Shown: positions 6,136 to 28,391 of the stretch, one piece after another | Position numbering within the stretch: position 1 is the stretch's first letter | Layout: each line of letters begins with the position of its first letter | Assembly (NCBI RefSeq): GCF_017357385.1 | Contig: NZ_CP071633.1 | Location: 682,001 to 746,000, forward strand | DNA: 64,000 bases | Direction of reading: 5' to 3' | Origin: Rhizobium sp. NZLR1 | GTDB taxonomy: Bacteria > Pseudomonadota > Alphaproteobacteria > Rhizobiales > Rhizobiaceae | Notes under the pieces: generated by a model | Database searches by the model: none | What the model saw: only the letters and a program-made list of their open reading frames with translations | What the model was told of the DNA's origin: nothing | Made by a program: the position numbers and the translations under genes

Positions 6136-7215
6136 TCAGAGGGCGACCGACAGGGCACTATCGCGTCGGGGGGCTATCTCCTGCGAATTCACCATCGCGC
6201 CCGCGAGCTGCCGGAAAGTGACAAGCCCCAATGTTTCCCCGGAGGGCGAAACGACCCTGGCATCGCCCTCTGGCGCCGATGCCAGCATTCGGACGGCCTC
6301 TTCGACGGTCGTGCCTGCCGCAATCGCCAGTCCAACCGGCGCCGCACCGGAGTGCAGCGGCGTCATGACGGCTTCGACATGGATGACCCGGCCTCGATTG
6401 ACCTCCTTGACGAAGTTGGCGATGTATTCGTCCGCCGGACGCAGAACGATGTCCTGGCTGGTGCCCTGCTGGATGACTTCGCCGTCGCGCAGGATGGCAA
6501 TCTGGTCGCCCAGGCGAAGTGCTTCATCGAGATCGTGGGTGATGAAGACGATAGTTTTTTTGATCTCTTTTTGAATGTTGAGAAGCACCGTCTGCATGTC
6601 CGTGCGGATCAAAGGATCGAGCGCCGAATAGGCTTCATCCATCAGAAGGACCGGCGCGTCGTTGGAAAGGGCGCGCGCCAGGCCGACGCGCTGCTGCATG
6701 CCGCCGGAAAGCTGGTTGGGATATCTTTGCTCGAAGCCCTTCAGGCCGACCCGCTCCAGCCAGCGCATGGCGATGTCGGTCGCTTTCGCGCGCTCCACGC
6801 CCTGCACTTCGAGGCCGAAGATGGTGTTGTCGAGAACATTCCGGTGCGGCAGAAGCGCGAACTTCTGAAATACCATCGCCGTCTGGTGCCGACGAAACGC
6901 CCGCAATTCGGTCTCGTTCATCTTCACGACATCGACGCCGTCGACCAGCACTTCGCCGGCGGTTGGATCGATCAGACGATTGATGTGGCGGATGAGCGTC
7001 GATTTCCCCGACCCCGAAAGGCCCATGACTACCTGGATGCGGCCGGAGGGAATCTCGACATTGATATCCCTCAGGCCCAGCACGTGACCGTGCTTTTCGT
7101 TGAGTTCGGTCTTTGACATTCCCTTCTGGACGGCATCGACATGCGCGGAGGGGTTGGGACCGAAGATCTTGTAGAGATGGCGGATCTTGATGCCGCCGAA
7201 ACGCTGATCAGCCAT
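6136..7215 (-). CDS. Quaternary-amine (betaine-type) ABC transporter ATP-binding protein
   Basis: A 359-residue ATPase of the ProV/OpuAA/ChoV group, energising uptake of glycine betaine, proline betaine or choline. Walker A GLSGSGKST is at about residues 65-73 and the signature LSGGMQQRVGLARAL is followed by LLMDEAYSALDP. A C-terminal CBS-like tail (about 270-355) fits the osmoregulatory subfamily. The start is at ATG 7215, overlapping the permease stop by eight bases; longer upstream frames lack homology. It is the last gene of a minus-strand set with permease and binding protein, next to a ProC-like gene, TetR and the divergent stcD operon, which suggests proline betaine as a substrate. Confidence 0.9.
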   Translation of the reverse strand: MADQRFGGIKIRHLYKIFGPNPSAHVDAVQKGMSKTELNEKHGHVLGLRDINVEIPSGRIQVVMGLSGSGKSTLIRHINRLIDPTAGEVLVDGVDVVKMNETELRAFRRHQTAMVFQKFALLPHRNVLDNTIFGLEVQGVERAKATDIAMRWLERVGLKGFEQRYPNQLSGGMQQRVGLARALSNDAPVLLMDEAYSALDPLIRTDMQTVLLNIQKEIKKTIVFITHDLDEALRLGDQIAILRDGEVIQQGTSQDIVLRPADEYIANFVKEVNRGRVIHVEAVMTPLHSGAAPVGLAIAAGTTVEEAVRMLASAPEGDARVVSPSGETLGLVTFRQLAGAMVNSQEIAPRRDSALSVAL

Positions 7216-8095
7216 GGACGATCTCCCGATGCTTCTGGAGCCTCTTGCCATACGCCTGGCTGACTCGGTCGAAGATGATGGCGATGCCGACGATGGCAAG
7301 GCCGTTGAAAATACCCAGGGTGAAATACTGGTTTGCAATCGCCTTCAGCACCGGCTGGCCGAGGCCCTGGACGCCGATCATCGATGCGATGACCACCATG
7401 GCCAGCGCCATCATGATCGTCTGGTTGATGCCGGCCATGATGGTGGGAAGCGCGAGCGGCAGCTGCACCTTGAACAGCTTCTGCGCGCTCGAGGTCCCGA
7501 AGGCATCGGCTGCCTCCAGCACATCCTTGTCGACCAGCCGGATGCCGAGGTCCGTTAGCCTTATCATCGGCGGAATGGCGTAGATGACGACGGCGATCAG
7601 TCCCGGCACCTTGCCGATGCCGAGCAGCATGACGACAGGGATGAGATAGACGAAACTGGGCATGGTCTGCATGACGTCGAGGATCGGATTGATCACGCGC
7701 TGCAGCCGGTCGGAACGTGCCATGAATATTCCCATCGGAATGCCGATGGCGATGGAAAGAACCGTGCAGACGAAGATCATCGAGACCGTCCGCATCGTAT
7801 CGTCCCACATGTCGAAATAGCCGATCAGCAGCAGCGTCACCAGACAGCCGAAGACGACCTTCAGGCTGCGGCTCCCAAGCCATGCGATGGCTAGGATGAT
7901 CGCGGTGATGATCGGCCACGGCGTCTGCGTCATGAACCGTTCGGCGGCGATGAGGAAATGCTGCAGCGGAATGAAGAGGGTTTCGATGCCGTCGCCGTAG
8001 GCGCGGGTAAATCCGCGAAAGCCGTCATCGATCGCCTTCTTCAAATTGCGAAGCGCGTCGTCATCCATATGTGGGAATTTATAAAACCATTCCAT
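7208..8095 (-). CDS. Quaternary-amine ABC transporter permease
   Basis: A 295-residue ProW/OpuAB-type inner-membrane permease. The hydrophilic N-terminus (MEWFYKFPHMDDDALRNLKK) is followed by several transmembrane helices. The coupling region EAADAFGTSSAQKLFKVQLP lies ahead of LALPTIMAGINQTIMMALAM, the hallmark of betaine permeases. ATG 8095 is chosen over an upstream TTG because AAGGGGAT sits six bases before it. The gene is separated from the binding-protein gene by a hairpin and overlaps the ATPase gene. Confidence 0.9.
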   Translation of the reverse strand: MEWFYKFPHMDDDALRNLKKAIDDGFRGFTRAYGDGIETLFIPLQHFLIAAERFMTQTPWPIITAIILAIAWLGSRSLKVVFGCLVTLLLIGYFDMWDDTMRTVSMIFVCTVLSIAIGIPMGIFMARSDRLQRVINPILDVMQTMPSFVYLIPVVMLLGIGKVPGLIAVVIYAIPPMIRLTDLGIRLVDKDVLEAADAFGTSSAQKLFKVQLPLALPTIMAGINQTIMMALAMVVIASMIGVQGLGQPVLKAIANQYFTLGIFNGLAIVGIAIIFDRVSQAYGKRLQKHREIVHG

Positions 8096-8157
8096 TCGGA
8101 TCCCCTTTTTCTTCAAAGAGCCGCCGCAGTCTTTTTGATTTTATCGGCTGTGAGAGG

Positions 8158-8178
8158 CGGTGCGCTTTTCGCGCACCG
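8158..8178 (-). terminator. Intercistronic hairpin after the binding-protein gene
   Basis: CGGTGCGC and GCGCACCG form a perfect 8-bp stem around a 5-base loop, starting 12 bases beyond the stop of the minus-strand binding-protein gene and before the permease gene. No long U-run follows, so it is more likely a partial terminator or an mRNA-stabilising stem that keeps the binding protein in excess over the membrane subunits. Confidence 0.6.
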
Positions 8179-8190
8179 CGATAGTCAATG

Positions 8191-9192
8191 TTAAAGCGCA
8201 GCTTCGATCTTCGTGGCCGCCTCAGGCGAGACCCACTTGGTCCAAAGGTCCTTGTTTTCCTTCAGGAAGTGCTTGGCGCCGTCTTCACCAGTTGCCTGGT
8301 TGTCGGTCATCCACGACATCAGCTTGTTGACCGTGTCATTGCTCCAGGAGCGCTTCGCCAGATAGCCCATGACCTCAGGCCCGACCTTTTCCGAAAAGGG
8401 CTTGGCAACCAGGGTGACGACATGATCGACCGGCCAGGCATTGGGCTTCGGGTCGGCGCAATCGGCGACGGTGATGCAACGCTTCCATTCGGCGGCATCC
8501 TGCGGCACCCCGGCTTCGAGCTTGACCATCTGATACTTACCGAGCAGCGCGGTCGGCGCCCAGTAGTAACCGGCCCAGCCTTCCTTGCGCTCGTAAGCCT
8601 TGGCGATTGAACCATCGAGACCGGCGGCCGAGCCGGTATCGACGAGGGTGAAGCCCGCCTTCTCGGCTTCGAAGGCCTTGTAGAGCTGCGAGGTGACGAC
8701 AGTGCCACCCCAGCCCTGCGGGCCGTTGAAGATGGCGCCCTTCTTCGCGTCTTCGGGATCGGGGAAGAGTTCCGGATGCTTCAGCACGTCGCCGATGGTC
8801 TTGATATCGGGATGAGCGTCGGCGAGATATTTAGGAATCCACCAGCCCTGCACGCCGCCATCCGGCAGTGGAGAACCGACCTGAACGATGCGGCCTTCTT
8901 CCGTGCCCTTCTTGACGACGTCGGGGAGAAGATCGATCCAGGCTTCGGGCGCGATATCCGGCTGGCCTTTTTCGGCCATGGAGGTGATCGTCGGGACGGT
9001 GTCGCCAACGGTGATGTCAGCGCTGCAGCCATAGCCTTCGTTCAGGATGAACTTGTCCAGGTTTGAGAGAACTTCGGCGCTCTGCCAGTTCATGCTGGCG
9101 ATGGTCACGCTGCCGCATTCGGCGGCGCTGGCGAAAGACGCTCCGCCAATCAGGCCGAATGTCAGACATGTCGTTGCGAGTAGTTTTTTCAT
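8191..9192 (-). CDS. Quaternary-amine ABC transporter substrate-binding protein
   Basis: A 333-residue periplasmic protein of the OpuAC/ProX family. The N-terminus MKKLLATTCLTFGLIGGASF with ASA before AECG is a Sec signal peptide, cleaved near residue 23. The mature start GSVTIASMNWQSAE is typical of betaine/choline binding proteins (the conserved Trp contributes to the aromatic cage), as is the IAPEAWIDLLP segment. The gene is first in transcription order ahead of permease and ATPase. The substrate is not provable from sequence; proline betaine is favoured by context, with choline or glycine betaine as alternatives. Confidence 0.9.
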   Translation of the reverse strand: MKKLLATTCLTFGLIGGASFASAAECGSVTIASMNWQSAEVLSNLDKFILNEGYGCSADITVGDTVPTITSMAEKGQPDIAPEAWIDLLPDVVKKGTEEGRIVQVGSPLPDGGVQGWWIPKYLADAHPDIKTIGDVLKHPELFPDPEDAKKGAIFNGPQGWGGTVVTSQLYKAFEAEKAGFTLVDTGSAAGLDGSIAKAYERKEGWAGYYWAPTALLGKYQMVKLEAGVPQDAAEWKRCITVADCADPKPNAWPVDHVVTLVAKPFSEKVGPEVMGYLAKRSWSNDTVNKLMSWMTDNQATGEDGAKHFLKENKDLWTKWVSPEAATKIEAAL

Positions 9193-9259: not shown

Positions 9260-10054
9260 TCAGGAAACCTTTCCCATACTCACCGATTTCTCAAATGCCG
9301 CCGACAAACCCTTGGCGATCGACGCGTCGAATCCCGCAGCGCGCATGCTTTCGATGGCCGCCGCCGTCGTACCGCGATAATCGAGAAAGGTCTGAACGAC
9401 GTCTTCGGGACTTTCGTCGCGGCGCTCCAAAAGGCGACCGGCGCCTGTCATCACCGTATTGACGGCGCGGCGCGCAATCTCCGCCGGCAGGCCGCGGGCG
9501 ACGGCGTCATCCATCATGGCAGCCGCAAGCAGCGCCGGCAACGCCGGTCCGGAGCCGGAAAGGCCGGTGAGGTAATCGATGTCGCCTTCCCTTGCGACCT
9601 CGTCCTGCGATCCGCAGGCCTCGAAAATGGCGCGGACGACGGCCCGGTCATTTTCCGTGACCTCGCTTGTGCCGATCCACGGCGTATAGGACTTAGCCAC
9701 TTCGGCAGCCGCATTCGGCAGGGCGCGGACGACACGGCCGGTCTTGTGGTGTTGCGAAAGGGCGGCGAGACCAATCCCCGCCATCACCGAAATGACGAGC
9801 TTGCCGCCGGCATCGACATCAAGGGGATGCCAGTCATCAGGACGGACTGAGAGGAAGATCACGTCCGAGCGGTCGGCCAGCGCCTGATTGTCGGCCGTCC
9901 AGAAAGAATTCAAGAAACGATCCGGCTGTTTACCGCGATAGGAGAGAGAGAGCTTTCGAGGCTCTAGCAAACCCGCGTCGAGGATCGAGGCGGCGATGGC
10001 TCCGCCAAGCCAGCCGCTGCCGCCAATAATACCGATCCTCAAGGAAACGCTCAT
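9260..10054 (-). CDS. ProC-like NAD(P)-dependent imine reductase
   Basis: A 264-residue member of the pyrroline-5-carboxylate reductase family. It has an N-terminal Rossmann motif IGIIGGSGWLGGAIA and the C-terminal dimerisation domain with LSGSGPALPALLAAAMMDDA, the ProC signature region. Canonical ProC makes proline, but this copy lies between a betaine transporter and a TetR gene, beside a proline-degrading locus. A paralogue acting on another cyclic imine, such as a hydroxy- or N-methyl-pyrroline carboxylate, is therefore possible. It is 12 bases downstream of tetR and probably co-transcribed with it. Confidence 0.82.
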   Translation of the reverse strand: MSVSLRIGIIGGSGWLGGAIAASILDAGLLEPRKLSLSYRGKQPDRFLNSFWTADNQALADRSDVIFLSVRPDDWHPLDVDAGGKLVISVMAGIGLAALSQHHKTGRVVRALPNAAAEVAKSYTPWIGTSEVTENDRAVVRAIFEACGSQDEVAREGDIDYLTGLSGSGPALPALLAAAMMDDAVARGLPAEIARRAVNTVMTGAGRLLERRDESPEDVVQTFLDYRGTTAAAIESMRAAGFDASIAKGLSAAFEKSVSMGKVS

Positions 10055-10066
10055 CTCGGCTTTCCT

Positions 10067-10696
10067 CTAATCGGGCTTGTGGCCATGCCGGGAGAAGAAG
10101 CGATCGAGCTCCCTCTGCTGCGGCACTTCGCCCGTGTAGATCGCGATATATTCGGGAATCCGTTTCATGCGGACGGCGAGTTCCTCCCTTGATTGCATGG
10201 AGATGTATCCGATCTGGACGAGGTAAGTTGTACGCGCTCTGACATCCGATGTCGTTTCTGGTAACCCGAACCGCATGAACATGCGCTTGAGCGCCTCCAG
10301 CCGAATCTGATCGGCCTTCTGGACCTCTGCGAGAAGCTCGTCGGACTGCAGCGCCCAACTGCGCACGGCAAATTCGAACTTCGCGTCGAACAGATCGTTG
10401 TCGAGCCAGCAATCGAAGACATTGAGCATCGCTTCGGCGAGCGATTCCGCATAAGCCTCAGATCGCTTGACGATGTTGCCGGTGTTTTTGTCGCGCCATA
10501 GCGCCACGAGTGCACTCAACAGCTCCTCCCGATCCTTGAAGAACCAGTAGAAGCTCGTGCGCGAGAGATTTAGCTTTTTCGCCAGCGGCAGAATTTTCAC
10601 CGAATCCACGCCGGACTCCAGCAGTGAGTGGTAAGCTGCTTCCAGCCATCCTTCCTGTGATCCGCGCCAACCGGTGTCGTTCAAAGCCTGATCCAT
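10067..10696 (-). CDS. TetR-family transcriptional regulator
   Basis: A 209-residue regulator with an N-terminal TetR helix-turn-helix: AAYHSLLESGVDSVKILPLA leads into KKLNLSRTSFYWFFKDREEL, where SFYWFFKDREELL is the recognition-helix signature. The C-terminal ligand domain is not diagnostic. It is divergent from stcD, with 146 bases between them holding a strong inverted repeat that overlaps a sigma70-like promoter for stcD. It is the obvious candidate to control both the stc operon and its own operon with the ProC-like gene and perhaps the transporter, with a betaine or N-methylproline as a plausible effector. Confidence 0.88.
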   Translation of the reverse strand: MDQALNDTGWRGSQEGWLEAAYHSLLESGVDSVKILPLAKKLNLSRTSFYWFFKDREELLSALVALWRDKNTGNIVKRSEAYAESLAEAMLNVFDCWLDNDLFDAKFEFAVRSWALQSDELLAEVQKADQIRLEALKRMFMRFGLPETTSDVRARTTYLVQIGYISMQSREELAVRMKRIPEYIAIYTGEVPQQRELDRFFSRHGHKPD

Positions 10697-10842: not shown

Positions 10843-12879
10843 ATGTCGAACGATCCTCTCCTTCAGCCCTATCAGCTCAAGCACTTGAAGTTGCGTAACC
10901 GTATTATCGTCACCTCCCACGAGCCGGCCTATCCCGAAGACGGTATGCCGAAGGAGAAGTATCGTGCCTACACGGTGGAGCGGGCAAAGGGCGGAGTGGC
11001 ATTGACGATGACGGCGGGCTCGGCTGCGGTGTCCAGGGATAGTCCGCCGGTTTTCAACAATCTGCTGGCTTACAAGGACGAAATCGTTCCGTGGATCAGG
11101 GAAATGACCGACGCCGTGCACGAAGAGGGGGCGGCGATCATGATCCAGCTCACCCATCTCGGCCGGCGCACACGCTGGGACAAGGGCGACTGGCTGCCGG
11201 TTGTCGCCCCATCGCATCATCGCGAGGCATCCCATCGTGCCTTTCCGAAGAAGTTGGAAGATTGGGATATCGAGCGCATCATCAAGGATTTCGCCGACGC
11301 AGCCGAACGCATGAAGGCGGGCGGTATGGACGGCGTCGAACTCGAGGCCTACGGCCACTTGATCGACCAGTTCACGTCGCCGCTCACCAACGAGCTCGAT
11401 GGTCCCTATGGCGGCTCGCTCGACAACCGGCTGCGTTTCTGTTTCGATGTGTTCAAGGCGATCCGGCAGAGGGTCGGGGACGAGTTCATCCTGGGCGTGC
11501 GCTACACGGCCGACGAATGTCTTCCGGGCGGCACCGGCAAGGCCGAAGGCATCGAAATCTCCAGGCGCCTCAGGGACAGCGGCCTTATCGACTACCTGAA
11601 CGTAATCCGCGGTCACATCGATACCGACGCTGGCCTGACCGACGTGATCCCGATCCAGGGCATGGCGAATTCGCCGCATCTCGATTTCGCCGGCGAAATC
11701 CGCGCCGCGACAGACTTCCCGACTTTCCACGCCGCGAAGATCCCTGATGTCGCCACCGCGCGCCATGCGATCGCCTCCGGCAAGGTCGATATGATCGGCA
11801 TGACCCGCGCCCACATGACCGACCCGCACATCGTCCGCAAGATCATCGAGAAGCGGGAAGAGGACATTCGTCCCTGCGTCGGCGCCAATTACTGTCTCGA
11901 CCGCATTTATCAAGGCGGGGCCGCCTACTGCATCCACAATGCCGCCACCGGCCGCGAACTGACCATGCCGCATATGGTGGCGAAGGCCGACGCCAGGAAA
12001 AAGGTCGTCATCGTCGGCGCCGGCCCGGCCGGTCTGGAAGCAGCGCGCGTTGCCGGAGAACGCGGCCACCAGGTGGTCGTTTTCGAAGCGGCGAACAATC
12101 CCGGCGGCCAGATCCGGCTCACCGCCCAGAGCGAGCGCCGAAAGGAAATGATAAGCATCATCGACTGGCGCATGAGCCAGTGCGAGAAATACGACGTCAC
12201 CTTCCATTTCAACACCTGGGCGGAAGCTCACTCGATCGAAGCCGAGAATCCCGATGTCGTCATCATCGCGACGGGCGGTTTGCCGCATACCGAGGTTCTC
12301 TCGAGCGGCAACGAGCTGGTGGTCTCGTCATGGGACATCATCTCCGGCGACGTGAAGCCTGGAACCAACGTGCTGATCTTCGACGATGCCGGCGACCATG
12401 CCGGCCTTCAGGCGGCGGAGTTTCTGGCCAAGGCCGGCGCCAAGGTCGAGATCATGACGCCGGACCGGTCCTTCGCGCCCGAAGTTATGGCCATGAACCT
12501 GGTGCCCTATATGCGCTCGCTTCAGAAGCACGACGTGACCTTCACCGTCACCTATCGCTTGGAAGCTGTCGAGAAAAGCGGCAATCAGCTCGTCGCTCAT
12601 GTCGGCAGCGATTATGGCGGGATTGCCCGGCAGCACAGCTTCGACCAGATCGTCGTCAACCATGGGACCATCCCGCTCGACGAGCTCTATTTCGAGCTGA
12701 AACCCAGCTCGAGCAATCTCGGCGAGATGTCGCACGACCAGCTTCTTTCCGGGGAACCTCAATCCGTCATTCGCAATCCCGAGGGCAAGTTCCAGCTGTT
12801 TCGGATCGGCGATGCTGTCGCTGCGCGCAACACGCATGCCGCCATCTATGACGGCCTGCGCATCGCCAAGGATATATGA
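10843..12879 (+). CDS. stcD: N-methylproline demethylase (stachydrine catabolism)
   Basis: A 678-residue enzyme of the old-yellow-enzyme/trimethylamine dehydrogenase group, very close in length and layout to S. meliloti StcD. It oxidatively removes the N-methyl group of N-methylproline, giving proline and formaldehyde. Residues 1-340 form the FMN TIM barrel, residues 345-363 hold a Cys cluster for iron-sulfur binding, and residues 385-675 form the FAD/NAD-like domain with GAGPAGLEAARVAGE at 392. The Cys cluster reads CVGANYC then C363, with Ala348 where trimethylamine dehydrogenase has its second Cys. Downstream etfBA would accept the electrons and adhC-fghA-gfa would clear the formaldehyde. 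DgcA (dimethylglycine demethylase) is the nearest alternative. Confidence 0.88.
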   Translation: MSNDPLLQPYQLKHLKLRNRIIVTSHEPAYPEDGMPKEKYRAYTVERAKGGVALTMTAGSAAVSRDSPPVFNNLLAYKDEIVPWIREMTDAVHEEGAAIMIQLTHLGRRTRWDKGDWLPVVAPSHHREASHRAFPKKLEDWDIERIIKDFADAAERMKAGGMDGVELEAYGHLIDQFTSPLTNELDGPYGGSLDNRLRFCFDVFKAIRQRVGDEFILGVRYTADECLPGGTGKAEGIEISRRLRDSGLIDYLNVIRGHIDTDAGLTDVIPIQGMANSPHLDFAGEIRAATDFPTFHAAKIPDVATARHAIASGKVDMIGMTRAHMTDPHIVRKIIEKREEDIRPCVGANYCLDRIYQGGAAYCIHNAATGRELTMPHMVAKADARKKVVIVGAGPAGLEAARVAGERGHQVVVFEAANNPGGQIRLTAQSERRKEMISIIDWRMSQCEKYDVTFHFNTWAEAHSIEAENPDVVIIATGGLPHTEVLSSGNELVVSSWDIISGDVKPGTNVLIFDDAGDHAGLQAAEFLAKAGAKVEIMTPDRSFAPEVMAMNLVPYMRSLQKHDVTFTVTYRLEAVEKSGNQLVAHVGSDYGGIARQHSFDQIVVNHGTIPLDELYFELKPSSSNLGEMSHDQLLSGEPQSVIRNPEGKFQLFRIGDAVAARNTHAAIYDGLRIAKDI

Positions 12880-12924: not shown

Positions 12925-13527
12925 ATGAGTTTACGCGGAGAAAGCCTGCAGCTTTTCGTGGATGCGGCGTCTGCCGCTTTCGACCAATTCGCAAAGGCGC
13001 CGGAAGCACGCCGCTCGATCGGTCAGTTTTTTGCGGCGTTGGAACGGCGGGGAGCCGCACGTGCGGGAGAGGGAAGCCGGTTGCCGGTGTGTCATCACCT
13101 CGATCTGGCGCTCGCGATCGATACGTCCTATCCTTCGCTGACGGGATTAATCGAGGCCTTCAAAGGCATCGAGCCGATGCTTGAATGGCGTCGGCGCACC
13201 AAGTATGACCACACGGCCGACGACAATTTCGTCGATGGGCATGCCAATGCCATGATCATCGGCCCGGGAGGATTGGAGGAGCGGAACGACCTGTGGCTCG
13301 GTGTGACGTTAATGGCGCCTCAGGTGCGCTATCCGGACCATGACCATGCGCCCGAGGAAGTCTATCTGGTGCTTTCCGAGGGAGAGTTTCAGCAAGGGGA
13401 AGGGGACTGGTTTTCGCCTGGTATCGGCGGATCGTTCTACAATATCCCTGGAATCAAACATGCCATGAGGTCGGTGGGCACACCGCTCTTCGCCTTCTGG
13501 GCGCTGCTTGCCGAACGGCCGCACTGA
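12925..13527 (+). CDS. DddQ-like cupin (DMSP lyase family), active site intact
   Basis: A 200-residue single-domain cupin, the length of DddQ-type dimethylsulfoniopropionate lyases. The C-terminal cupin reads RYPDHDHAPEEVYLVLSEGE, and later GSFYNIPGIKHAMR. Y136, H139, H141, E145, Y147 and H179 match in identity and spacing the residues I recall for DddQ (Y120, H123, H125, E129, Y131, H163), which bind the metal and abstract the proton. It lies between stcD and etfB on the same strand, 45 bases after stcD, with a GGGGGGAT ribosome binding site. It may cleave DMSP or act on a related betaine of this pathway. The family is clear; the substrate is inference. Confidence 0.82.
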   Translation: MSLRGESLQLFVDAASAAFDQFAKAPEARRSIGQFFAALERRGAARAGEGSRLPVCHHLDLALAIDTSYPSLTGLIEAFKGIEPMLEWRRRTKYDHTADDNFVDGHANAMIIGPGGLEERNDLWLGVTLMAPQVRYPDHDHAPEEVYLVLSEGEFQQGEGDWFSPGIGGSFYNIPGIKHAMRSVGTPLFAFWALLAERPH

Positions 13528-13563: not shown

Positions 13564-14313
13564 ATGAAGATTCTCGTACCCGTCAAACGGGTCGTCGACT
13601 ACAACGTCAAGATCCGGGTGAAGCCGGACGGCACGGGTGTCGAGCTTGCCAATGTGAAGATGTCGATGAACCCGTTCGACGAAATCTCGGTGGAAGAGGC
13701 GCTGCGGCTGAAGGAAGCCGGCAGGTGCGAGGAAGTGATCGTCGTTTCGATCGGTCCGGCCAAGGCCGAAGAGACGCTGCGGACCGCCCTTGCCATGGGC
13801 GCCGACCGGGCGATCCTGGTCGAGACCGACGATGCCGTCGAGCCGCTCGCCGTCGCCAAGATCCTCAAGGGCATCGTTGATGCCGAGCAGCCGGGTCTTG
13901 TCATCGTCGGCAAGCAGGCGATCGACGACGATTCGAACCAGACCGGCCAGATGCTGGCAGCACTGCTGGGGTCCGCCCAGGCCACCTTCGCCTCGAAGAT
14001 CGAAATCGCTGACGGCAAGGCTGAGGTCACCCGCGAAGTCGATGGCGGCCTGCAGACGATCGAGATCACGCTGCCGGCGGTCATCACCTCGGACCTCAGG
14101 CTGAACGAACCGCGTTATGCCTCGCTGCCGAACATCATGAAGGCGAAGAAGAAGCCGCTCGACAAGAAGAGCCCGGCCGATTTCGGTGTCGACACCACGC
14201 CGCGGCTGAAGGTTCTGAAGACCGAGGAACCGTCGGGCCGCAAGGCCGGGGTCAAGGTCAAGTCGGTCGCCGAACTGGTCGACAAGCTCAAAAACGAAGC
14301 CGGCGTGCTTTAA
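13564..14313 (+). CDS. etfB: Electron transfer flavoprotein subunit beta
   Basis: A 249-residue ETF beta subunit: [20 protein letters not shown] at the N-terminus and the ETF beta signature region around [20 protein letters not shown]. With EtfA it forms the soluble FAD/AMP heterodimer that takes electrons from dehydrogenases. ATG 13564 is used; a TTG two codons upstream is possible. It lies in the stcD operon, so StcD is the likely electron donor. This copy is probably dedicated to betaine demethylation rather than being the housekeeping ETF. Confidence 0.93.
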
Positions 14314-14335: not shown

Positions 14336-15265
14336 ATGACCATTCTTCTTCTGGCCGACCACGACAATCAAAGCCTCTCCGACCAGACCGCCAAGGCGCT
14401 GACGGCAGCAAGCCAGATCGGCTCCGATATTCACATCCTCGTCGCCGGCAAGGCTGCCAAGGCAGCCGCCGATGCCGCGGCAAAACTCTTCGGCGTCGCC
14501 AAGGTGCTGCTGGCCGAAAGCGACGAGCTCGCCAACAATCTGGCCGAGCCGCTTTCCGACCTGATCGTTTCGCTGGCCGGTGCCTACGACACGATCATCT
14601 CGGCTGCCACCTCGACCGGCAAGAACGTGCTGCCGCGCGTCGCTGCCCTGCTCGACGTCGCCCAGGTCTCCGAAATCATCGAAGTGATCTCATCCGACAC
14701 CTTCAAGCGGCCGATCTATGCCGGCAATGCCATTCAGACGGTGCAGGCAAGTGATGCGAAGAAGGTGATCACCGTGCGCACCGCCTCCTTCGCTTCGGCA
14801 GCCGAAGGCGGTTCTGCCAGCGTCGAGGCGATCCCGGCGATCTCAGATCCGGGGCTGTCGCGTTTCGTCAAGGATGCACTGTCGGCCTCCGACCGTCCGG
14901 AGCTGACCTCGGCCAAGATCATCATCTCCGGCGGCCGGGCGCTCGGCTCGGCCGAGAAGTTCCGGGAGGTCATCCTTCCCGTTGCCGACAAGCTCGGCGC
15001 TGCCGTCGGCGCCAGCCGCGCTGCCGTCGATGCCGGTTATGCGCCGAACGACTGGCAGGTCGGCCAGACCGGCAAGGTGGTGGCGCCTGATCTTTACATT
15101 GCCGCCGGCATCTCCGGCGCCATCCAGCATCTGGCCGGCATGAAGGACAGTAAGGTCATCGTCGCCATCAACAAGGACGAGGAGGCGCCGATCTTCCAGG
15201 TTGCCGACTACGGATTGGTCGCCGATCTGTTCGAGGCCCTGCCGGAATTGGAAAAGGCGCTCTGA
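14336..15265 (+). CDS. etfA: Electron transfer flavoprotein subunit alpha
   Basis: A 309-residue ETF alpha subunit starting 22 bases after etfB behind an AGGAAAGAGAG site. The C-terminal FAD-binding half has the signature region [20 protein letters not shown] followed by [20 protein letters not shown], which is diagnostic. It carries the electron-transferring FAD. No ETF-ubiquinone oxidoreductase gene is present in the window, so electrons must pass to one encoded elsewhere. Confidence 0.93.
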
Positions 15266-15281: not shown

Positions 15282-15983
15282 GTGGTGCGCGCGGTGGGAC
15301 GTCCAATCAAACGTGGGGCCGACCTTCTTCTGAACGATGAGGAAAAGCCGGCATATATACGGCTGCACGACATCGGGAGGGAAAGGCGTCCTCGGCCGCT
15401 GCAGGAATTCCTCAACGACGTCGGCGGCCTGATGTTGTCGGCGGAGGCTCCTGCCGTCGCCAGTTTCGTCGCCGGCAAGGTTCTCCAGAAGCTGCTGAAG
15501 ACCGGCAAGGTGCGCGGCCCGGAGGGCGGGCCTGCTCTACCAGGCGCGCCCGAAGGGCTTGATGACGCCATTGGCAATCTTGCTCAATCAGGACGGAAAT
15601 ACGAGGCGATCGCCGGCCAATTCAGAAGTCTTGCCGACAGCCTGCTCTGGCGCCGCGGCCGCTCCGGTCCGTTTGCAAGCCTGAATTTCGGCAACACGCA
15701 TTCTCATGCGGTGGTGATCGGCCCCGGCGGCATGGAGGAACGCGCCGATCTCAGGGTCGGCGTGATCTATATGGACCGCTATACCCGGTTTCCCGATCAT
15801 GTTCAGACGCAACCGCGCGCCTTCATCCTGCTGTCGCCTGGAGAAATCTGCCTTGGCAATTCCCAGTGGTTCTCTGGGGAGACTGGCACGGTCTTCGCGA
15901 ACGATGCAGGGCAATCGTTCGCAATCAGATGCACGGCAAGGCCGCTTCTCGCAGTCTGGTGCCAGGTTGAACGGGAGACGTGA
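15282..15983 (+). CDS. Degenerate DddQ-like cupin paralogue
   Basis: About 233 residues from GTG 15282, which follows GAGGGAGA and starts just after the etfA stop; a longer frame overlapping etfA is less likely. The C-terminal half aligns with the cupin at 12925: SHAVVIGPGGMEERADLRVG here corresponds to NAMIIGPGGLEERNDLWLG there. The active-site stretch, however, reads RFPDHVQTQPRAFILLSPGE, so Tyr, His, Glu and Tyr become Phe, Gln, Arg and Phe, and the last metal His becomes Phe. Only one His of the set survives. The N-terminal 110 residues differ from the other copy. The frame is intact over the whole length, so it may be a non-catalytic subunit or a binding protein rather than a decaying gene. 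Confidence 0.75.
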   Translation: MVRAVGRPIKRGADLLLNDEEKPAYIRLHDIGRERRPRPLQEFLNDVGGLMLSAEAPAVASFVAGKVLQKLLKTGKVRGPEGGPALPGAPEGLDDAIGNLAQSGRKYEAIAGQFRSLADSLLWRRGRSGPFASLNFGNTHSHAVVIGPGGMEERADLRVGVIYMDRYTRFPDHVQTQPRAFILLSPGEICLGNSQWFSGETGTVFANDAGQSFAIRCTARPLLAVWCQVERET

Positions 15984-16079: not shown

Positions 16080-17207
16080 ATGGACGTTCGCGCCGCCGTT
16101 GCCGTTCAGGCCGGAAAACCGCTGGAAGTGATGACCGTGCAGCTGGACGGCCCGAAGGCCGGCGAAGTGCTGGTCGAGGTCAAGGCGACCGGCATCTGCC
16201 ACACCGACGATTTCACCCTGTCGGGCGCCGATCCGGAAGGCCTGTTCCCGGCCATCCTCGGCCATGAAGGTGCCGGCATCGTCGTCGACGTCGGCCCCGG
16301 CGTCACCTCGGTCAAGAAGGGCGACCACGTCATCCCGCTCTACACGCCGGAATGTCGCGAATGTTATTCCTGCCTGTCGCGCAAGACCAATCTCTGCACC
16401 GCGATCCGCTCGACCCAGGGCCAGGGCGTGATGCCGGACGGCACCTCGCGCTTTTCGATCGGCAAGGACAAGATCCATCACTATATGGGCTGCTCGACCT
16501 TCGCCAATTTCACCGTGCTGCCGGAGATCGCCCTTGCCAAGGTCAATCCCGACGCCCCCTTCGACAAGATCTGCTACATCGGCTGCGGGGTGACGACAGG
16601 CATCGGCGCGGTGATCAACACCGCCAAGGTCGAGATCGGCGCCACCGCCATCGTCTTCGGTCTCGGCGGCATCGGCCTCAACGTGCTGCAGGGCCTGCGG
16701 CTTGCCGGTGCCGACATGATCATCGGCGTCGACATCAACAGCGACCGCAAGGAATGGGGCGACAAGTTCGGCATGACGCATTTCGTCAATCCGAAAGAGG
16801 TCGGCGATGACATCGTGCCCTATCTGGTCAACCTGACCAAGCGCAATGGCGACCTGATCGGCGGCGCCGACTATACGTTCGACTGCACCGGCAACACCAA
16901 GGTGATGCGCCAGGCGCTCGAAGCCAGCCATCGCGGCTGGGGCAAGTCGATCATCATCGGCGTTGCCGGCGCCGGCCAGGAGATCTCCACCCGGCCGTTC
17001 CAGCTGGTCACCGGCCGCAACTGGATGGGCACCGCCTTCGGCGGCGCGCGTGGCCGCACCGACGTGCCGAAGATCGTCGACTGGTACATGCAGGGCAAGA
17101 TCCAGATCGACCCGATGATCACCCACACCATGCCGCTCGAAGACATCAACAAAGGCTTCGACATGATGCACAAGGGCGAAAGCATCCGCGGCGTGGTGGT
17201 CTATTAA
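16080..17207 (+). CDS. adhC: S-(hydroxymethyl)glutathione dehydrogenase (class III alcohol dehydrogenase)
   Basis: A 375-residue zinc- and NAD-dependent dehydrogenase. CHTDDFTLSG, GHEGAGIVVDVG and the structural-zinc Cys cluster CRECYSCLSRKTNLC identify it, and GLGGIGLNVLQG is the nucleotide-binding motif. Length and sequence match glutathione-dependent formaldehyde dehydrogenases. It oxidises S-hydroxymethylglutathione, formed from the formaldehyde released in N-demethylation, to S-formylglutathione, the substrate of the next gene. It is followed by fghA after three bases. Confidence 0.94.
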   Translation: MDVRAAVAVQAGKPLEVMTVQLDGPKAGEVLVEVKATGICHTDDFTLSGADPEGLFPAILGHEGAGIVVDVGPGVTSVKKGDHVIPLYTPECRECYSCLSRKTNLCTAIRSTQGQGVMPDGTSRFSIGKDKIHHYMGCSTFANFTVLPEIALAKVNPDAPFDKICYIGCGVTTGIGAVINTAKVEIGATAIVFGLGGIGLNVLQGLRLAGADMIIGVDINSDRKEWGDKFGMTHFVNPKEVGDDIVPYLVNLTKRNGDLIGGADYTFDCTGNTKVMRQALEASHRGWGKSIIIGVAGAGQEISTRPFQLVTGRNWMGTAFGGARGRTDVPKIVDWYMQGKIQIDPMITHTMPLEDINKGFDMMHKGESIRGVVVY

Positions 17208-17210
17208 GCC

Positions 17211-18047
17211 ATGAAAACCATCTCGACAGAGAAGTCACACGACGGCATCCAGGGGGGTTACGTTAATCGCTCGGAGGTCTGTGATTGCGACATGACCTTT
17301 GCTGTCTTCGTGCCGCCGCAGGCGCTCAAGGGCAACTGCCCGGTTCTATGGTACCTTTCCGGCCTGACATGCACGCATGCCAATGTCATGGACAAGGGCG
17401 AGTATCGGCGGCTTGCGGCTGAGCTCGGACTGATCGTCGTCTGCCCGGATACCAGCCCGCGCGGTGACCACGTCCCCGACGAAGCCGACAATTGGCAGTT
17501 CGGCAAGGGTGCGGGCTTTTATGTCGATTCCACCCAGCCGCCCTATTCGGCGAACTATCGGATGTACAGCTACATCGTCGACGAGTTGCCGCGGCTGCTG
17601 GCCGCGGAATTCCCGGTCGACATGGGCCGCCAGGGAATCTTCGGGCACTCGATGGGGGGGCATGGCGCGATCACCATCGCGCTCAAGAACCCGGATCGCT
17701 TCCAGAGCTGCTCGGCCTTCGCGCCGATCAGCCGTCCCTCGGTCTCCGGCTGGTCGAAACCGGCATTGCGGAAATATCTCGGGGCGGATGAAACGACCTG
17801 GCGGGCCTATGATGCCTGCTCGCTGATCGAAGACGGGTACCGGTTCCCGGAACTGTTCGTCGATCAGGGGACGGCGGATAGCTTCCTGGAGGACGGATTG
17901 CGTCCCGATGAGCTCAGGCAAGCCTGCGAAGCGGCGGGCATCGACCTGTCGCTTCGCATGCAGGAAGGCTACGGCCACTCCTACTCTTTCATTTCGACAT
18001 TCATGGAAGACCATCTGCGCTGGCATGCGCAGAGGTTGGGAAATTAG
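17211..18047 (+). CDS. fghA: S-formylglutathione hydrolase
   Basis: A 278-residue alpha/beta-hydrolase of the esterase D family. GHSMGGHGAI carries the nucleophilic Ser, and the C-terminal DQGTADSF and GYGHSYSF regions carry the Asp and His. It hydrolyses S-formylglutathione to formate and glutathione. The start lies three bases after the adhC stop, so the two act as one unit. No formate dehydrogenase is seen in the window. Confidence 0.94.
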   Translation: MKTISTEKSHDGIQGGYVNRSEVCDCDMTFAVFVPPQALKGNCPVLWYLSGLTCTHANVMDKGEYRRLAAELGLIVVCPDTSPRGDHVPDEADNWQFGKGAGFYVDSTQPPYSANYRMYSYIVDELPRLLAAEFPVDMGRQGIFGHSMGGHGAITIALKNPDRFQSCSAFAPISRPSVSGWSKPALRKYLGADETTWRAYDACSLIEDGYRFPELFVDQGTADSFLEDGLRPDELRQACEAAGIDLSLRMQEGYGHSYSFISTFMEDHLRWHAQRLGN

Positions 18048-18104: not shown

Positions 18105-18674
18105 ATGAGCATAGCTATTCATCCGCTAGTGGATTCAGGCTTTCAGGCGACTGACGCTGCCTTTGCAGGCGGAACGCTCGGGTGCAAGTGCACGAGCAAC
18201 CCCGTAAAGGTCAGGATCAAGGGCGATATCGCCCATAATCACGCCTGCGGCTGCACCAAGTGCTGGAAGCCAGAGGGCGCCGTCTTTTCGGTCGTGGCAG
18301 TTGCGCCGACCGACAGCGTCGAAGTGTTGGAGAACGGTGACAAACTTGCCGTCGTCGAAGCCGCGGCGCTGATCCAGCGGCATGCCTGCAAGCAATGCGG
18401 CGTGCATCTGTACGGCCCGGTCGAGCGTGAACATGCGTTCCAGGGATTGTCGTTCATCCATCCGGAGCGCTTCCAGGAAGGCGGCTGGGCAAAGCCGGGC
18501 TTTGCGGCCTTCGTGTCGTCGATCATCGAAAGCGGCTTCGATCCTGGCAAGATGGACGCCGTCAGAGCGCAGTTGAAGGCGTCGGGCCTCGAGCCGTACG
18601 ATTGCCTCAACCCCGGCTTGATGGACTATATCGCAACCTGGACCGCCAAGAAGAGCGGAGCGCTCGCCCCGTGA
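18105..18674 (+). CDS. gfa: Glutathione-dependent formaldehyde-activating enzyme
   Basis: A 189-residue zinc protein of the Gfa/CENP-V family, which speeds condensation of formaldehyde with glutathione. Cys motifs are visible as [15 protein letters not shown] and HACKQCGVH. An AGGGAGGGAAGGAG site precedes ATG 18105. With adhC and fghA it completes formaldehyde detoxification for the upstream demethylase operon. Confidence 0.92.
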
Positions 18675-19078: not shown

Positions 19079-19795
19079 ATGGCGAGGACACCCAAGAGCA
19101 ATCTCTACGAAGATCTGAAACGCCGGATTCTGACGATGGAACTGGACCCGGACGCCGATCTGGACGAGGCCAGTCTGAGCGAAAAATATGGGCTCTCCCG
19201 GACGCCGGTCCGCGACATATTCCGCCGCCTTGCCGGTGAGGGCTATATCGATATCCGCGAGAACAGGGGTGCGCGGGTCATCCCGATGAACCACTCCACG
19301 CTGCGCAATTTCTTTCTTGTCGCGCCGATGATCTATGCGGCGATCGGCCGTCTCGCCGTGCAGAATTTCAAGCCCGCCCAGCTTGTCGACCTGAAGCAGA
19401 CCCAGGAGCGCTTTCGCGCCGCCAGCGAGGACGCAGACGCCCTGAGAATGGTGCTGGAGAACAACCGCTTTCACGAGATCTTCGGCGAAATGTCGGGCAA
19501 CGTCTATCTGCAGCCGAGTCTCGGCCGGCTGCTCATCGATCACGCGCGCATCGGCCACACGTTCTTCCGACCGAGGAACGAGGACATGAAGCGGCGGCTG
19601 CAGGTGGCGGTCGACCACCATGACGGCTTCATCGCCGCGCTCGGCGCTCACGACGAGAATGCCGTCGTCGATCTCGTTTTCGAACACTGGGAATTGTCCC
19701 GCGAGAACATGGAGATGTTCATCGCCCCGCAAGGCCTGAAAGCGGACGCCTTCCTCGGCGCTCCGGCCACGCAATTATTGGAGAAGTCACCGTGA
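19079..19795 (+). CDS. GntR-family (FCD subgroup) transcriptional regulator
   Basis: A 238-residue regulator. The winged helix lies at about residues 8-70: SNLYEDLKRRILTMELDPDA then LSEKYGLSRTPVRDIFRRLA, the GntR signature. An all-helical C-terminal domain with Asp/His positions (for example NNRFHEIFGEMSGN, DHHDGFIAAL) fits an FCD ligand domain. Its stop overlaps the GTG start of the dapA-like gene (GTGA), so it leads the operon it presumably controls through the palindrome at 18986-19016. Confidence 0.9.
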   Translation: MARTPKSNLYEDLKRRILTMELDPDADLDEASLSEKYGLSRTPVRDIFRRLAGEGYIDIRENRGARVIPMNHSTLRNFFLVAPMIYAAIGRLAVQNFKPAQLVDLKQTQERFRAASEDADALRMVLENNRFHEIFGEMSGNVYLQPSLGRLLIDHARIGHTFFRPRNEDMKRRLQVAVDHHDGFIAALGAHDENAVVDLVFEHWELSRENMEMFIAPQGLKADAFLGAPATQLLEKSP

Positions 19796-20703
19796 AGTTT
19801 GAGGGGATCTATACGCCGGCGGTGACGCCACTCGATCAAAATGGACAGATCGACCGGGCCGGATTTACCGCCGTGCTCGAGTCGCTGATCGAGGCGGGAG
19901 TGCACGGCATCATCGTCGGCGGTTCGACGGGCGAATACTACGCCCAGAGCAGCCAGGAGCGTTTCGAACTCGCCGCCTATGCGCGAGAAGTCATCGGCAC
20001 ACGGCTGCCGCTCATCATCGGGACCGGTGCCATACGTACCGAAGATTCGGTCGAATATGCCAAGGCGGCGAAGGAAATCGGCGCGGATGCAATCCTGGTG
20101 TCGTCACCGCCCTACGCGCTGCCGACCGAACGCGAAAACGCCGTCCATGCGCTGACGGTCGATCGCGCCGCCAACCTGCCGATCATGCTCTACAACTATC
20201 CGGCCCGCATGGGCGTGGTGATGGGCGAGGAGTATTTCTCCCGCGTCGGCAAGTCGAAGAACGTCATCGCCATCAAGGAAAGCTCCGGCGACATGGGCAA
20301 TCTTCATCGGCTCGCCCGGAAATTTCCGCATATCGCGCTGTCCTGCGGCTGGGACGATCAGGCGCTCGAATTCTTCGCATGGGGTGCGAAGAGCTGGGTC
20401 TGCGCCGGCTCAAACTTCCTGCCGCGCGAGCATGTCGCTCTCTATGAGGCCTGCGTCCTGGAAAAGAACTTCGACAAGGGCCGGGCGATCATGACGGCAA
20501 TGCTGCCGCTGATGGATTTCCTTGAATGCGGCAAGTTCGTCCAGTCGATCAAGCACGGATGCGAATTGATCGGGCTGAATGTCGGATCGGTCCGCGCGCC
20601 GCTGCGTCCGCTCAACTCCGAAGAAAAGCGAACCCTCCAGACCGTCGTCGCCACATTGAAGCGCACGGTCGCCCAGATCACATCGGGAGCAAACCATGCA
20701 TGA
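19792..20703 (+). CDS. DapA/NAL-family lyase or deaminase, possibly HypD-like
   Basis: A 303-residue TIM-barrel aldolase of the dihydrodipicolinate synthase family. GGSTGEYYAQSS is the substrate-carboxylate loop, YNYPARMGV holds the catalytic Tyr, and IAIKESSGD holds the Schiff-base Lys. The GTG start overlaps the gntR stop. In hydroxyproline pathways a family member (HypD) deaminates pyrroline-4-hydroxy-2-carboxylate. The following aldehyde dehydrogenase, FAD oxidoreductase and proline-racemase homologue fit that role, but a 2-keto-acid aldolase cannot be excluded. Confidence 0.85.
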   Translation: MKFEGIYTPAVTPLDQNGQIDRAGFTAVLESLIEAGVHGIIVGGSTGEYYAQSSQERFELAAYAREVIGTRLPLIIGTGAIRTEDSVEYAKAAKEIGADAILVSSPPYALPTERENAVHALTVDRAANLPIMLYNYPARMGVVMGEEYFSRVGKSKNVIAIKESSGDMGNLHRLARKFPHIALSCGWDDQALEFFAWGAKSWVCAGSNFLPREHVALYEACVLEKNFDKGRAIMTAMLPLMDFLECGKFVQSIKHGCELIGLNVGSVRAPLRPLNSEEKRTLQTVVATLKRTVAQITSGANHA

Positions 20704-22213
20704 ACCCTTGACCGCCGCCGAATACAAGGCGATCGCCACCGAGCTTCAGTTTCCGACGAATGCCTTCATCGATGGCGCATTCCGTCCGGCAAATTCCGGC
20801 AAGACCTTCGCCTCCACGAACCCCGCAACGGGCGAGGTCCTTGCCGAAATCGCCGCCTGCGATTCCAGCGACGTCGACTTCGCCGTTACGAAGGCGAGGG
20901 ATGCGTTCGATGATGGACGCTGGCGGCTGCGCTCGCCGGGAGCGCGCAAGGAAGTGCTTCTGAAGCTCGCCAAGCTCATGGAGCAGAACAGGCACGAGCT
21001 TGCCGTCCTGGAAAGCATCGACAGCGGCAAGCCGGTGCGGGAATGCCAGACGGTCGATATTCCTGATACCATTCATACGATCCGCTGGCATGCCGAGCTG
21101 ATCGACAAGCTTTATGACAACACCGCCCCGGTCGGAGCCAACGCGCTGACGATGATCGTGCGCGAGCCGATCGGCGTCGTCGGATGTGTGCTTCCATGGA
21201 ATTTCCCGCTGCTGATGCTGGCCTGGAAGATCGGCCCGGCGCTCGCCGCTGGCTGCTCGGTCATCGTCAAGCCGGCCCAGGAAACGACGCTGACGACGCT
21301 GCGTGTCGCCGAGCTTGCCCATGAAGCCGGCATTCCGGCTGGTGTGTTCAACGTCGTCACCGGCTCCGGCCGCGAAGTCGGCGAACCGATCGGCCTGCAC
21401 ATGGGTGTCGATATGGTCGCCTTCACCGGATCGACCCCGACCGGCCGCCGCTTTCTGCGTTATGCCGCGGATTCGAACCTCAAGAAGGTCGTACTCGAAT
21501 GCGGCGGCAAGAATCCCGCGGTCGTTCTTGACGATGCCGAAGACCTGGATCTCGTTGCCGAGCAGGTGGTCAACGGCGCCTTCTGGAACATGGGTGAGAA
21601 CTGCTCTGCCACGTCGCGTCTCATTGTTCATTCCAAGATCAAGGACGAGTTGCTGAAGCGCATCGGCGCCTATATGCGCGAATGGAAGACCGGCGATCCG
21701 CTCGATCCGGACAATCGCATCGGCGCACTGGTCAGCAAAGCGCATTTCGAGAAGGTGAAATCCTTCCTCGACGACGCCAAGACGGAGAAGCTAACGGTCG
21801 CCCACGGCGGCGAAACGCATGGCGGCATCTTCATCGAGCCGACGGTGTTCGATGGCGTAACGCCCGCCAGCCGCCTGTTCCAGGAAGAGATCTTCGGGCC
21901 GGTACTCTCGGTCACAACCTTCAATTCGCTTGCCGAAGCGATCGCCCTTGCCAACGACACCAATTACGGCCTGACGGCGTCGGTCTATACCGGCAGCCTG
22001 AGAAACGCCATCAAGCTCGCGCGCGAAATCCGCGCCGGCGTCGTCACCGTCAACTGCTTCGGTGAAGGTGATGCCACCACGCCGTTCGGCGGCTACAAGG
22101 AGTCCGGCTTCGGCGGCCGCGACAAGTCGGTCTTTGCTCACGACAATTACTGCGAACTCAAGACCATCTGGATCGACGTATCCGAGCGGTCGGTCGACGA
22201 GACCATCCGATGA
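20696..22213 (+). CDS. NAD(P)-dependent aldehyde dehydrogenase, PuuC-like
   Basis: A 505-residue class I-type aldehyde dehydrogenase. PWNFPLLMLAWKIGPALAAG, FTGSTPTGRRF, LECGGKNP (catalytic Glu) and NMGENCSATSR (catalytic Cys) are all present. Overall it resembles PuuC, gamma-glutamyl-aminobutyraldehyde dehydrogenase. The ATG lies eight bases before the dapA stop, so translation is coupled. In a hydroxyproline-type pathway the corresponding step oxidises 2-oxoglutarate semialdehyde. With the PuuB-like oxidoreductase next door, an omega-amino aldehyde is an alternative substrate. Confidence 0.9.
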   Translation: MHEPLTAAEYKAIATELQFPTNAFIDGAFRPANSGKTFASTNPATGEVLAEIAACDSSDVDFAVTKARDAFDDGRWRLRSPGARKEVLLKLAKLMEQNRHELAVLESIDSGKPVRECQTVDIPDTIHTIRWHAELIDKLYDNTAPVGANALTMIVREPIGVVGCVLPWNFPLLMLAWKIGPALAAGCSVIVKPAQETTLTTLRVAELAHEAGIPAGVFNVVTGSGREVGEPIGLHMGVDMVAFTGSTPTGRRFLRYAADSNLKKVVLECGGKNPAVVLDDAEDLDLVAEQVVNGAFWNMGENCSATSRLIVHSKIKDELLKRIGAYMREWKTGDPLDPDNRIGALVSKAHFEKVKSFLDDAKTEKLTVAHGGETHGGIFIEPTVFDGVTPASRLFQEEIFGPVLSVTTFNSLAEAIALANDTNYGLTASVYTGSLRNAIKLAREIRAGVVTVNCFGEGDATTPFGGYKESGFGGRDKSVFAHDNYCELKTIWIDVSERSVDETIR

Positions 22214-27392: not shown

Positions 27393-28391
27393 ATGAGAAA
27401 CAGCTTCTTCTGCATCGATGCGCATACCTGCGGCAATCCCGTCCGTCTCGTCGCCGGCGGTGGTCCGCTGCTTCCGCATGTGCCCATGGGCGAGCGCCGG
27501 GAGATCTTCGTCCGCGACCACGACTGGGTGCGCAAGGCACTGATGTTCGAGCCGAGGGGGCATGACATCATGTCAGGCTCGATCATTTACCCGGCCTATC
27601 GGGAGGACTGCGATTTCGCCGTTCTTTTCATCGAGGTGAGCGGCTGCCTGCCGATGTGCGGCGCCGGCACCATCGGCACCGTGACCGCCGCGATCGAGGA
27701 AGGGTTGATCAAGCCGCGCGAAGCTGGAAGGGTCGCCATCGAAACGCCTGCCGGCAGAGTGGACGTCACTTACGAGGAGAAGGGCGGATATGTCGATTCC
27801 GTTCGCCTCCACAATGTCGCGAGCTATCTCCATGAGGCCGATGTCGAGGTCGATGTGCCAGGAATGGGCCGTCTGCGCGTCGATATTTCCTATGGCGGCA
27901 ACTATTATGCCGTCATCGAACCGCAAGAGAATTGGAGCGGGCTCGACGGCATGACGGCGTCCGATATCGTCGGCTGCAGCCAGAAGCTCAGGGCGGCACT
28001 TGCGAGTGTCTGCGATCCCGTTCATCCCGACGACGCCAGGATTTCCGGCGTGCATCACGCGATCTGGTGCGATCGCCCTGTGAACGACCACTCCGGTGGG
28101 CGCTGCGCGGTCTTCTACGGTGAGAAAGCCATCGACCGGTCACCAGGCGGCACCGGCACTTCGGCGCGCATGGCCCAACTCTATGGGAAGGGGCGGATGT
28201 CGGTCGGGTCGAGTTACCGTCATGAAAGCCTGATCGGAACCGTTTTCGAGGGCCGGGTTGAAGCCGAGGCAAGTATCGGATCTTATCGCGGTATTCTTCC
28301 GAGCATCGGCGGCTGGGCCCGCGTCATCGGGCACAACACCATTTTCGTTGACGATCGTGACCCCCTGGCGCACGGTTTTCAGATTCGATAA
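27393..28391 (+). CDS. Proline racemase/hydroxyproline epimerase superfamily enzyme with atypical active site
   Basis: A 332-residue member of the superfamily holding proline racemase, 4-hydroxyproline 2-epimerase and trans-3-hydroxyproline dehydratase. The first catalytic Cys is at MCGAGTIG (Cys89), but the usual His two residues later is Ala91. The second motif reads DRSPGGTGTSA: Asp248 is kept and Gly252 replaces the Cys of epimerases or the Thr of dehydratases. A two-base epimerase mechanism is therefore unlikely, and a one-base dehydratase or a changed chemistry is more likely. It ends the transporter operon, pointing to a hydroxylated proline or betaine as substrate. Confidence 0.85.
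   Translation: MRNSFFCIDAHTCGNPVRLVAGGGPLLPHVPMGERREIFVRDHDWVRKALMFEPRGHDIMSGSIIYPAYREDCDFAVLFIEVSGCLPMCGAGTIGTVTAAIEEGLIKPREAGRVAIETPAGRVDVTYEEKGGYVDSVRLHNVASYLHEADVEVDVPGMGRLRVDISYGGNYYAVIEPQENWSGLDGMTASDIVGCSQKLRAALASVCDPVHPDDARISGVHHAIWCDRPVNDHSGGRCAVFYGEKAIDRSPGGTGTSARMAQLYGKGRMSVGSSYRHESLIGTVFEGRVEAEASIGSYRGILPSIGGWARVIGHNTIFVDDRDPLAHGFQIR

Follow-up and report, generated by a model that had tools for sequence, protein, structure and literature searches.

A DddQ-fold cupin and its metal-less paralogue in a betaine catabolic operon of Rhizobium sp. NZLR1

The window analysed here (64,000 nucleotides of Rhizobium sp. NZLR1, contig NZ_CP071633.1, positions 682,001 to 746,000 of the forward strand) contains a betaine catabolic operon with two genes for cupins of the Pfam family PF16867 (DMSP_lyase, the cupin-DLL family), designated CupA and CupB. 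CupA has the fold of the dimethylsulfoniopropionate (DMSP) lyase DddQ with a complete metal and tyrosine site, and database records label it dimethylsulfoniopropionate lyase, or in some cases transcriptional regulator; CupB keeps the fold without the metal site. The chances are about even that CupA is a metal-dependent, lyase-like DddQ-fold cupin with a role in the catabolism of (hydroxy)proline betaines, rather than an enzyme dedicated to DMSP cleavage.

The betaine operon of the window

The operon, which includes electron transfer flavoprotein (ETF) genes, and its surroundings are made up as follows:

6136..9192, - strand: betaine-type ABC transporter (OpuAC binding protein, permease and ATPase, from domain matches)
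9260..10054, - strand: P5CR-like reductase, a frequent companion of CupA (168 bits versus the ProC cut-off of 197)
10067..10696, - strand: TetR-family regulator, divergent from stcD (Pfam match)
10843..12879, + strand: stcD/hpbA-type N-methylproline demethylase (Oxidored_FMN and Pyr_redox_2, Pfam), a 73% match to a Paracoccus gene annotated hpbA, N-methyl-L-proline N-demethylase
12925..13527, + strand: CupA, PF16867 cupin of 200 aa with complete Y136/H139/H141/E145/Y147/H179 and DddQ fold
13564..14313, + strand: etfB (PF01012)
14336..15265, + strand: etfA (PF01012 and PF00766)
15282..15983, + strand: CupB, PF16867 cupin of 233 aa, with a GTG start inferred from relatives
16080..17207, + strand: frmA, S-(hydroxymethyl)glutathione dehydrogenase (TIGR02818, 584 bits, cut-off 544)
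17211..18047, + strand: fghA, S-formylglutathione hydrolase (TIGR02821, 432 bits, cut-off 282)
18105..18674, + strand: gfa, S-(hydroxymethyl)glutathione synthase (TIGR02820, 304 bits, cut-off 235)
19079..23556, + strand: hydroxyproline module of a regulator, DHDPS-family protein, aldehyde dehydrogenase and DAO-family oxidase (regulator and aldehyde dehydrogenase named by eye)
27393..28391, + strand: proline racemase family protein (PF05544)
29554..31888, - strand: Rieske oxygenase and its reductase (domain matches)

With its stcD/hpbA demethylase, ETF, betaine transporter and formaldehyde genes, the locus has the make-up of an stc/hpb betaine catabolic operon. A first-pass annotation of this DNA had rightly placed an intact open reading frame of 200 residues, that of CupA, between stcD and etfB, 45 bp past the former and 36 bp ahead of the latter; it missed CupB, which matches PF16867 with 80.2 bits (E 1.9e-22, cut-off 27). 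The roles of the window genes in the breakdown of stachydrine and hydroxyproline betaine are in part assumed: the proline racemase family gene is taken to be of the hydroxyproline epimerase type, and the Rieske oxygenase is presumably a Stc2-type betaine demethylase. The P5CR-like protein, being under the ProC cut-off, is possibly a betaine-pathway reductase rather than an enzyme of proline biosynthesis. We know of no account of a cupin as part of the stc/hpb betaine demethylation pathway, and the literature matches listed included none on cupins in stachydrine operons or on a PF16867 branch tied to stcD or hydroxyproline operons.

CupA and DddQ within the cupin family

CupA matches PF16867 with 189.9 bits (E 3.4e-56, cut-off 27), which is not chance, and its closest matches by phmmer among PDB sequences were 5cu1 (1.3e-6), the DddQ structure 4la2 (6.1e-6) and 4b29 (9.6e-4). 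The metal and tyrosine pattern of the family (Y..H.H...E.Y plus a further H) is complete, and alignment to 4la2 displaced none of the conserved residues: Y136/H139/H141/E145/Y147/H179 of CupA fall on chain positions 120/123/125/129/131/163, in the DddQ register claimed by the first-pass annotation. These positions correspond to the residues named essential in DddQ in the passages of PMC4437653 cited here. No DNA-binding domain was found in CupA by the Pfam scan. NCBIfam names no family for CupA or CupB and gave no match over cut-off for DddQ segments, so that it cannot separate them. The Pfam scores of DddQ chain segments (123-140 residues) were 59-72 bits versus 190 for CupA, and the name DMSP_lyase thus rests on lower-scoring members of PF16867.

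Residues and spacing are therefore present as predicted; their description as a DddQ-type active site went too far, since the six residues are shared across the family. In an alignment of 166 PF16867 rows (148 from genome loci, 15 proteins and 3 PDB segments, with some duplicate genes, among them re-fetched copies of window genes), all six occur in 140 rows, including 48 of the 51 rows outside the CupA-locus, CupB and DddQ sets, which come from very different gene contexts. The set thus marks a catalytic family, and its use alone as an identifier of DddQ was ruled out. Beyond the six, CupA lacks the residues conserved in DddQ: at positions 106, 108, 118, 120, 122, 138, 192 and 194, CupA has H, N, E, R, D, D, W and L (81 rows), in contrast to mostly Y, Y, F, S, Q, W, V and W in DddQ (10 rows), and R135, W162 and R182 of CupA are variable across the same DddQ rows.

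Phylogenetic analysis likewise separated the two. In a quick IQ-TREE tree of 61 hand-picked rows from the 166, the eight DddQ rows included all lay on one side of a branch marked 97*, and CupA fell in a 99* group with CupB and seven other rows, none of them DddQ. Constraining CupA and DddQ together was rejected (p-AU 0.0199; 0.0203 when three nested rows were assigned to CupA, and 0.0207 when CupB was added too), in a test whose grouping was chosen after a first FastTree had been inspected and whose constrained trees also separate DddQ from three rows grouped with it at 98*. These three rows (L125, L131 and L145; genome loci are numbered with L) are PF16867 proteins from the window's order, and from their placement they appear to be better DMSP-lyase candidates than CupA. 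The locus L123 carries two distinct PF16867 genes in tandem, at 4919 and 5416, in one genome.

Among known lyases, DddQ of R. lacuscaerulensis (4la2), R. pomeroyi (5cu1) and R. nubinhibens (4b29) is 19-26% identical to CupA, on a separate branch from it; CupA is unlike DddQ in its conserved set outside the six residues and in its betaine-operon context. DddK and DddY differ from CupA in length and domain make-up, and the sequence search gave no match to DddK and an E of 0.56 for DddY; the tree was built from PF16867 rows without DddL, DddW, DddK, DddY or DddU. The cupin family reportedly includes bona fide DMSP lyases as well as enzymes whose function is unknown (so the title of Lei et al. 2018). 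CupA is a member of the PF16867 lyase-like cupins of unknown function; what sets its branch apart is the association with stcD and hydroxyproline operons.

Gene neighbourhoods of CupA and CupB

A genome scan matched 143 stretches, of which 123 encode relatives, and the best 80 were retained for locus counts; 28 of these (L004-L031) are close Rhizobium relatives. Genes for StcD lie directly upstream of CupA in 70 of the 80 (42 of 52 without the close Rhizobium relatives), and a P5CR match is present in the flank of 70 (limit 60 bits). EtfB is directly downstream in at least 44 of the 80 and CupB is present in at least 11, or 11 of the 47 loci with at least 2.6 kb downstream; these downstream counts are lower bounds because many contigs stop shortly after the cupin. 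R. johnstonii 3841 (L007) has a CupA orthologue of 88% identity in the same operon, and Paracoccus shares the order hpbA-cupin-etfB-etfA. S. meliloti pSymB shares the stcD-cupA pair, followed by usg and groES with no CupB or ETF next door, in an incomplete annotation.

Where CupA does not adjoin StcD it is often beside hydroxyproline genes (L044, L050, L073, L077 and L083; also L223 and L226), and the P5CR-like gene is directly upstream of CupA in L212 (the same locus as L223), L214 and L215. Gene calls in the flanks of some loci, including L223, L226, L214 and L215, are rough ones by third-position GC, with neighbours identified by eye or through BLAST comparison with the window; one such call had hidden an ETF pair. 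The record of L077, titled Mycobacterium sp. KBS0706, carries an alphaproteobacterial hydroxyproline-CupA operon, and its organism name is probably wrong. In L177 and L178, CupA relatives (44-45%) have, judging by eye, a gene of the dimethylarginine hydrolase type, a formate-tetrahydrofolate ligase and a polyamine-type ABC transporter as neighbours. At E 1e-25 or better, the CupA profile matched 13 of the 385 genomes from the class and 9 of the 398 from the phylum; both counts include the genome of the window.

CupB has F, H, Q, R, F and F at the sites 136, 139, 141, 145, 147 and 179, so that only H139 is kept, and carries a DLL motif in its N-terminal extension. It is under purifying selection, as judged from the ratio of nonsynonymous to synonymous substitution rates (dN/dS). 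The fold is kept, the catalytic residues are lost and selection is maintained, which makes CupB a pseudoenzyme; as a conserved metal-less paralogue it should, from its sequence, be unable to perform CupA-type chemistry, and its role is probably one of binding or regulation, in some operons beside ETF. The gene follows etfA in the window and in Sinorhizobium BG8 (L220), and is beside ETF also in L106 and in R. etli Mim1 (L085). An ETF gene lies within ~1.5 kb in just 4 of 13 CupB-type loci (L191, L193, L194, which is that of the window, and L204), and the reading that CupB is always linked to ETF is weakened. An obligate pair of CupA and CupB was ruled out by S. meliloti pSymB, with CupA and no adjacent CupB or ETF, and by the R. 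gallicum operon, with CupB and no CupA in the stretch examined. The locus L106 belongs to the window's own genome and holds a third PF16867 gene (7943-8638 of the locus, - strand), of CupB type without metal ligands, which adjoins a further EtfB/EtfA pair, with 91% and 85% identity to that of the window.

Possible functions of the two cupins

Of the suggestions in the first-pass annotation, a lyase for another betaine or onium compound fits the context best, with a substrate that we infer from the neighbouring genes. According to the cited part of PMC10686828, DddK coordinates its metal through His56, His58, Glu62 and His96; the carboxylate group of the substrate binds to this metal, Tyr64 abstracts the alpha proton, and the onium group is held in place by aromatic residues. 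CupA has the same metal and tyrosine set, which makes abstraction of an alpha proton from a metal-bound carboxylate the most likely first step. By analogy with DddK and DddQ, a betaine or N-methyl imino acid would be bound through its carboxylate to a divalent metal on H139, H141, E145 and H179, and Y147 (the equivalent of Tyr64 by motif, with Y136 nearby) would take the alpha proton; the carbanion could then lose a beta group or be reprotonated on the other face, and reduction of an unsaturated ring product may fall to the P5CR-like neighbour. Proline or hydroxyproline betaine, an N-methyl form, or a compound whose product P5CR reduces fits the operons best as substrate, and epimerase, dehydratase and carbinolamine lyase activities were also considered.

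Several observations weigh against this assignment to (hydroxy)proline-betaine catabolism. The nitrogen of proline betaine is alpha, not beta, to the carboxylate, so that DMSP-type elimination is not directly transferable. StcD of at least 66% identity was found in 17 of 249 genomes of the order (tables joined by eye), with a PF16867 gene directly behind it in 6 and none adjacent in 11; CupA is thus accessory and dispensable to StcD operons, and R. gallicum (L222) has stcD, etfB, etfA, CupB and frmA in order with no CupA within the 12.7 kb examined, a case inside the genus of an operon that naturally lacks it. In these 11 StcD loci (L088-L098) there was no P5CR match at a 70-bit limit, versus 70 of 80 CupA loci, which suggests that CupA and the P5CR-like gene go together; this linkage is confounded by kinship, and L214 and L215, of one genus, have P5CR-CupA without a hydroxyproline module. 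Three of the 80 best loci (L055, L060 and L065) have none of StcD, P5CR, Rieske or DapA/aldehyde dehydrogenase in the flank. Among 16 regions with CupA profile matches from the class and phylum sets, StcD was present in three (L174, L186 and L189) and the other 13, with more distant relatives (34-54%), had no StcD, ETF or P5CR match nearby. The CupA group itself has a modest SH-aLRT support of 80-85. In NCBIfam, EtfB and EtfA come closest to the models of acryloyl-CoA reductase ETF subunits, at scores far below cut-off (121 of 475 bits for EtfB, 143 of 600 bits for EtfA), and the AcuR model gives the TetR protein 15 of 247 bits; to judge by these scores, both look like ordinary family likeness.

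Four other functions of CupA were weighed against (hydroxy)proline-betaine catabolism. It is quite unlikely that CupA handles a demethylation by-product, for example by breaking N-hydroxymethyl (carbinolamine) adducts down into formaldehyde and amine, or by binding formaldehyde adducts. Its position after the demethylase in most loci, the Rieske-type match just downstream in L073 and L083, the Rieske or flavin oxidase matches near distant relatives (L118, L122, L124 and L130) and its dispensability, which suits a reaction that also runs unaided, speak for such a role, but L044, L050 and L077 (likewise L223 and L226 by rough gene calls) have no StcD or Rieske gene in the flank, and 11 of 17 StcD genes manage without an adjacent CupA. 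A chiefly metabolite-binding or regulatory cupin with no catalytic role in the pathway, as CupB may be, is comparably improbable: some records do say transcriptional regulator and CupB demonstrates that loss of the metal site with persistence is possible in the family, yet the strict motif-1 pattern is retained in 118 of the 120 homologues listed and CupA has no DNA-binding domain detectable by Pfam.

That CupA is a true DMSP (or dimethylsulfoxonium propionate, DMSOP) lyase yielding acrylate, present in the operon because the betaine transporter also imports DMSP, is very unlikely. The DddQ fold, the six residues, the database labels and the weak ETF and TetR matches given above are in favour, as is a working acuI elsewhere in the genome of R. 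leguminosarum 3841, according to passages of PMC3338564; all DMSP lyases tested in PMC10686828, as far as its cited passages extend, also cleave DMSOP. Against this, CupA is outside the DddQ branch, DddQ has mostly Y, F, S and Q at H106, E118, R120 and D122 of CupA and W at L194, and none of 22 matches to TIGR02823 (the YhdH family, taken as the AcuI model) in the window's genome was over cut-off. The first-pass idea that a plant-associated bacterium might here cleave DMSP is not supported by the same evidence. Strain J391 presumably derives from R. leguminosarum 3841. A library screen was made in R. leguminosarum J391, and Rhizobium is stated to be unable to catabolize DMSOP, in the cited passages of PMC10686828; this evidence is negative and not decisive because those passages contain no statement that the betaine operon was induced. 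On present evidence the DMSP-lyase reading of CupA is a label inherited from the family name.

A lyase for another beta-onium or beta-amino acid such as beta-alanine betaine, a co-opted side branch of the betaine regulon, is just as doubtful, for although the catalytic set suits beta-elimination and DddK can form C-N bonds with amines (in the passages of PMC12582016 cited here), both types of operon point to proline and hydroxyproline betaine as the context, and no propionate or acrylate gene was recognised in the 20 window proteins scanned, AcuI being the only one specifically searched for.

A wider proposal is that the catabolism of plant (hydroxy)proline betaines has an unrecognised catalytic branch made up of CupA and the P5CR-like reductase, the cupin acting on a cyclic ammonium betaine or imino acid by elimination or epimerisation, and that CupB, with its conserved DLL docking-type motif, is a pseudoenzyme controlling or tethering the ETF-linked demethylation machinery in some rhizobia; as a whole this is unlikely. 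What makes the locus interesting is a branch of DddQ-fold enzymes associated with the catabolism of cyclic betaines, together with a paralogue that lacks the metal site and is maintained by selection. Medicago seeds exude stachydrine, which activates NodD2, according to passages of PMC12239276, and the pathway therefore matters for symbiosis. Many rhizobial genes are labelled dimethylsulfoniopropionate lyase through PF16867; if the label is wrong for the CupA branch, gene-name surveys would overestimate dimethyl sulfide production on land, and the operon would offer a way to test what a branch of the lyase-like cupins naturally acts on. CupB would offer a clear example, in bacteria, of a metabolic pseudoenzyme that selection maintains alongside an active relative.
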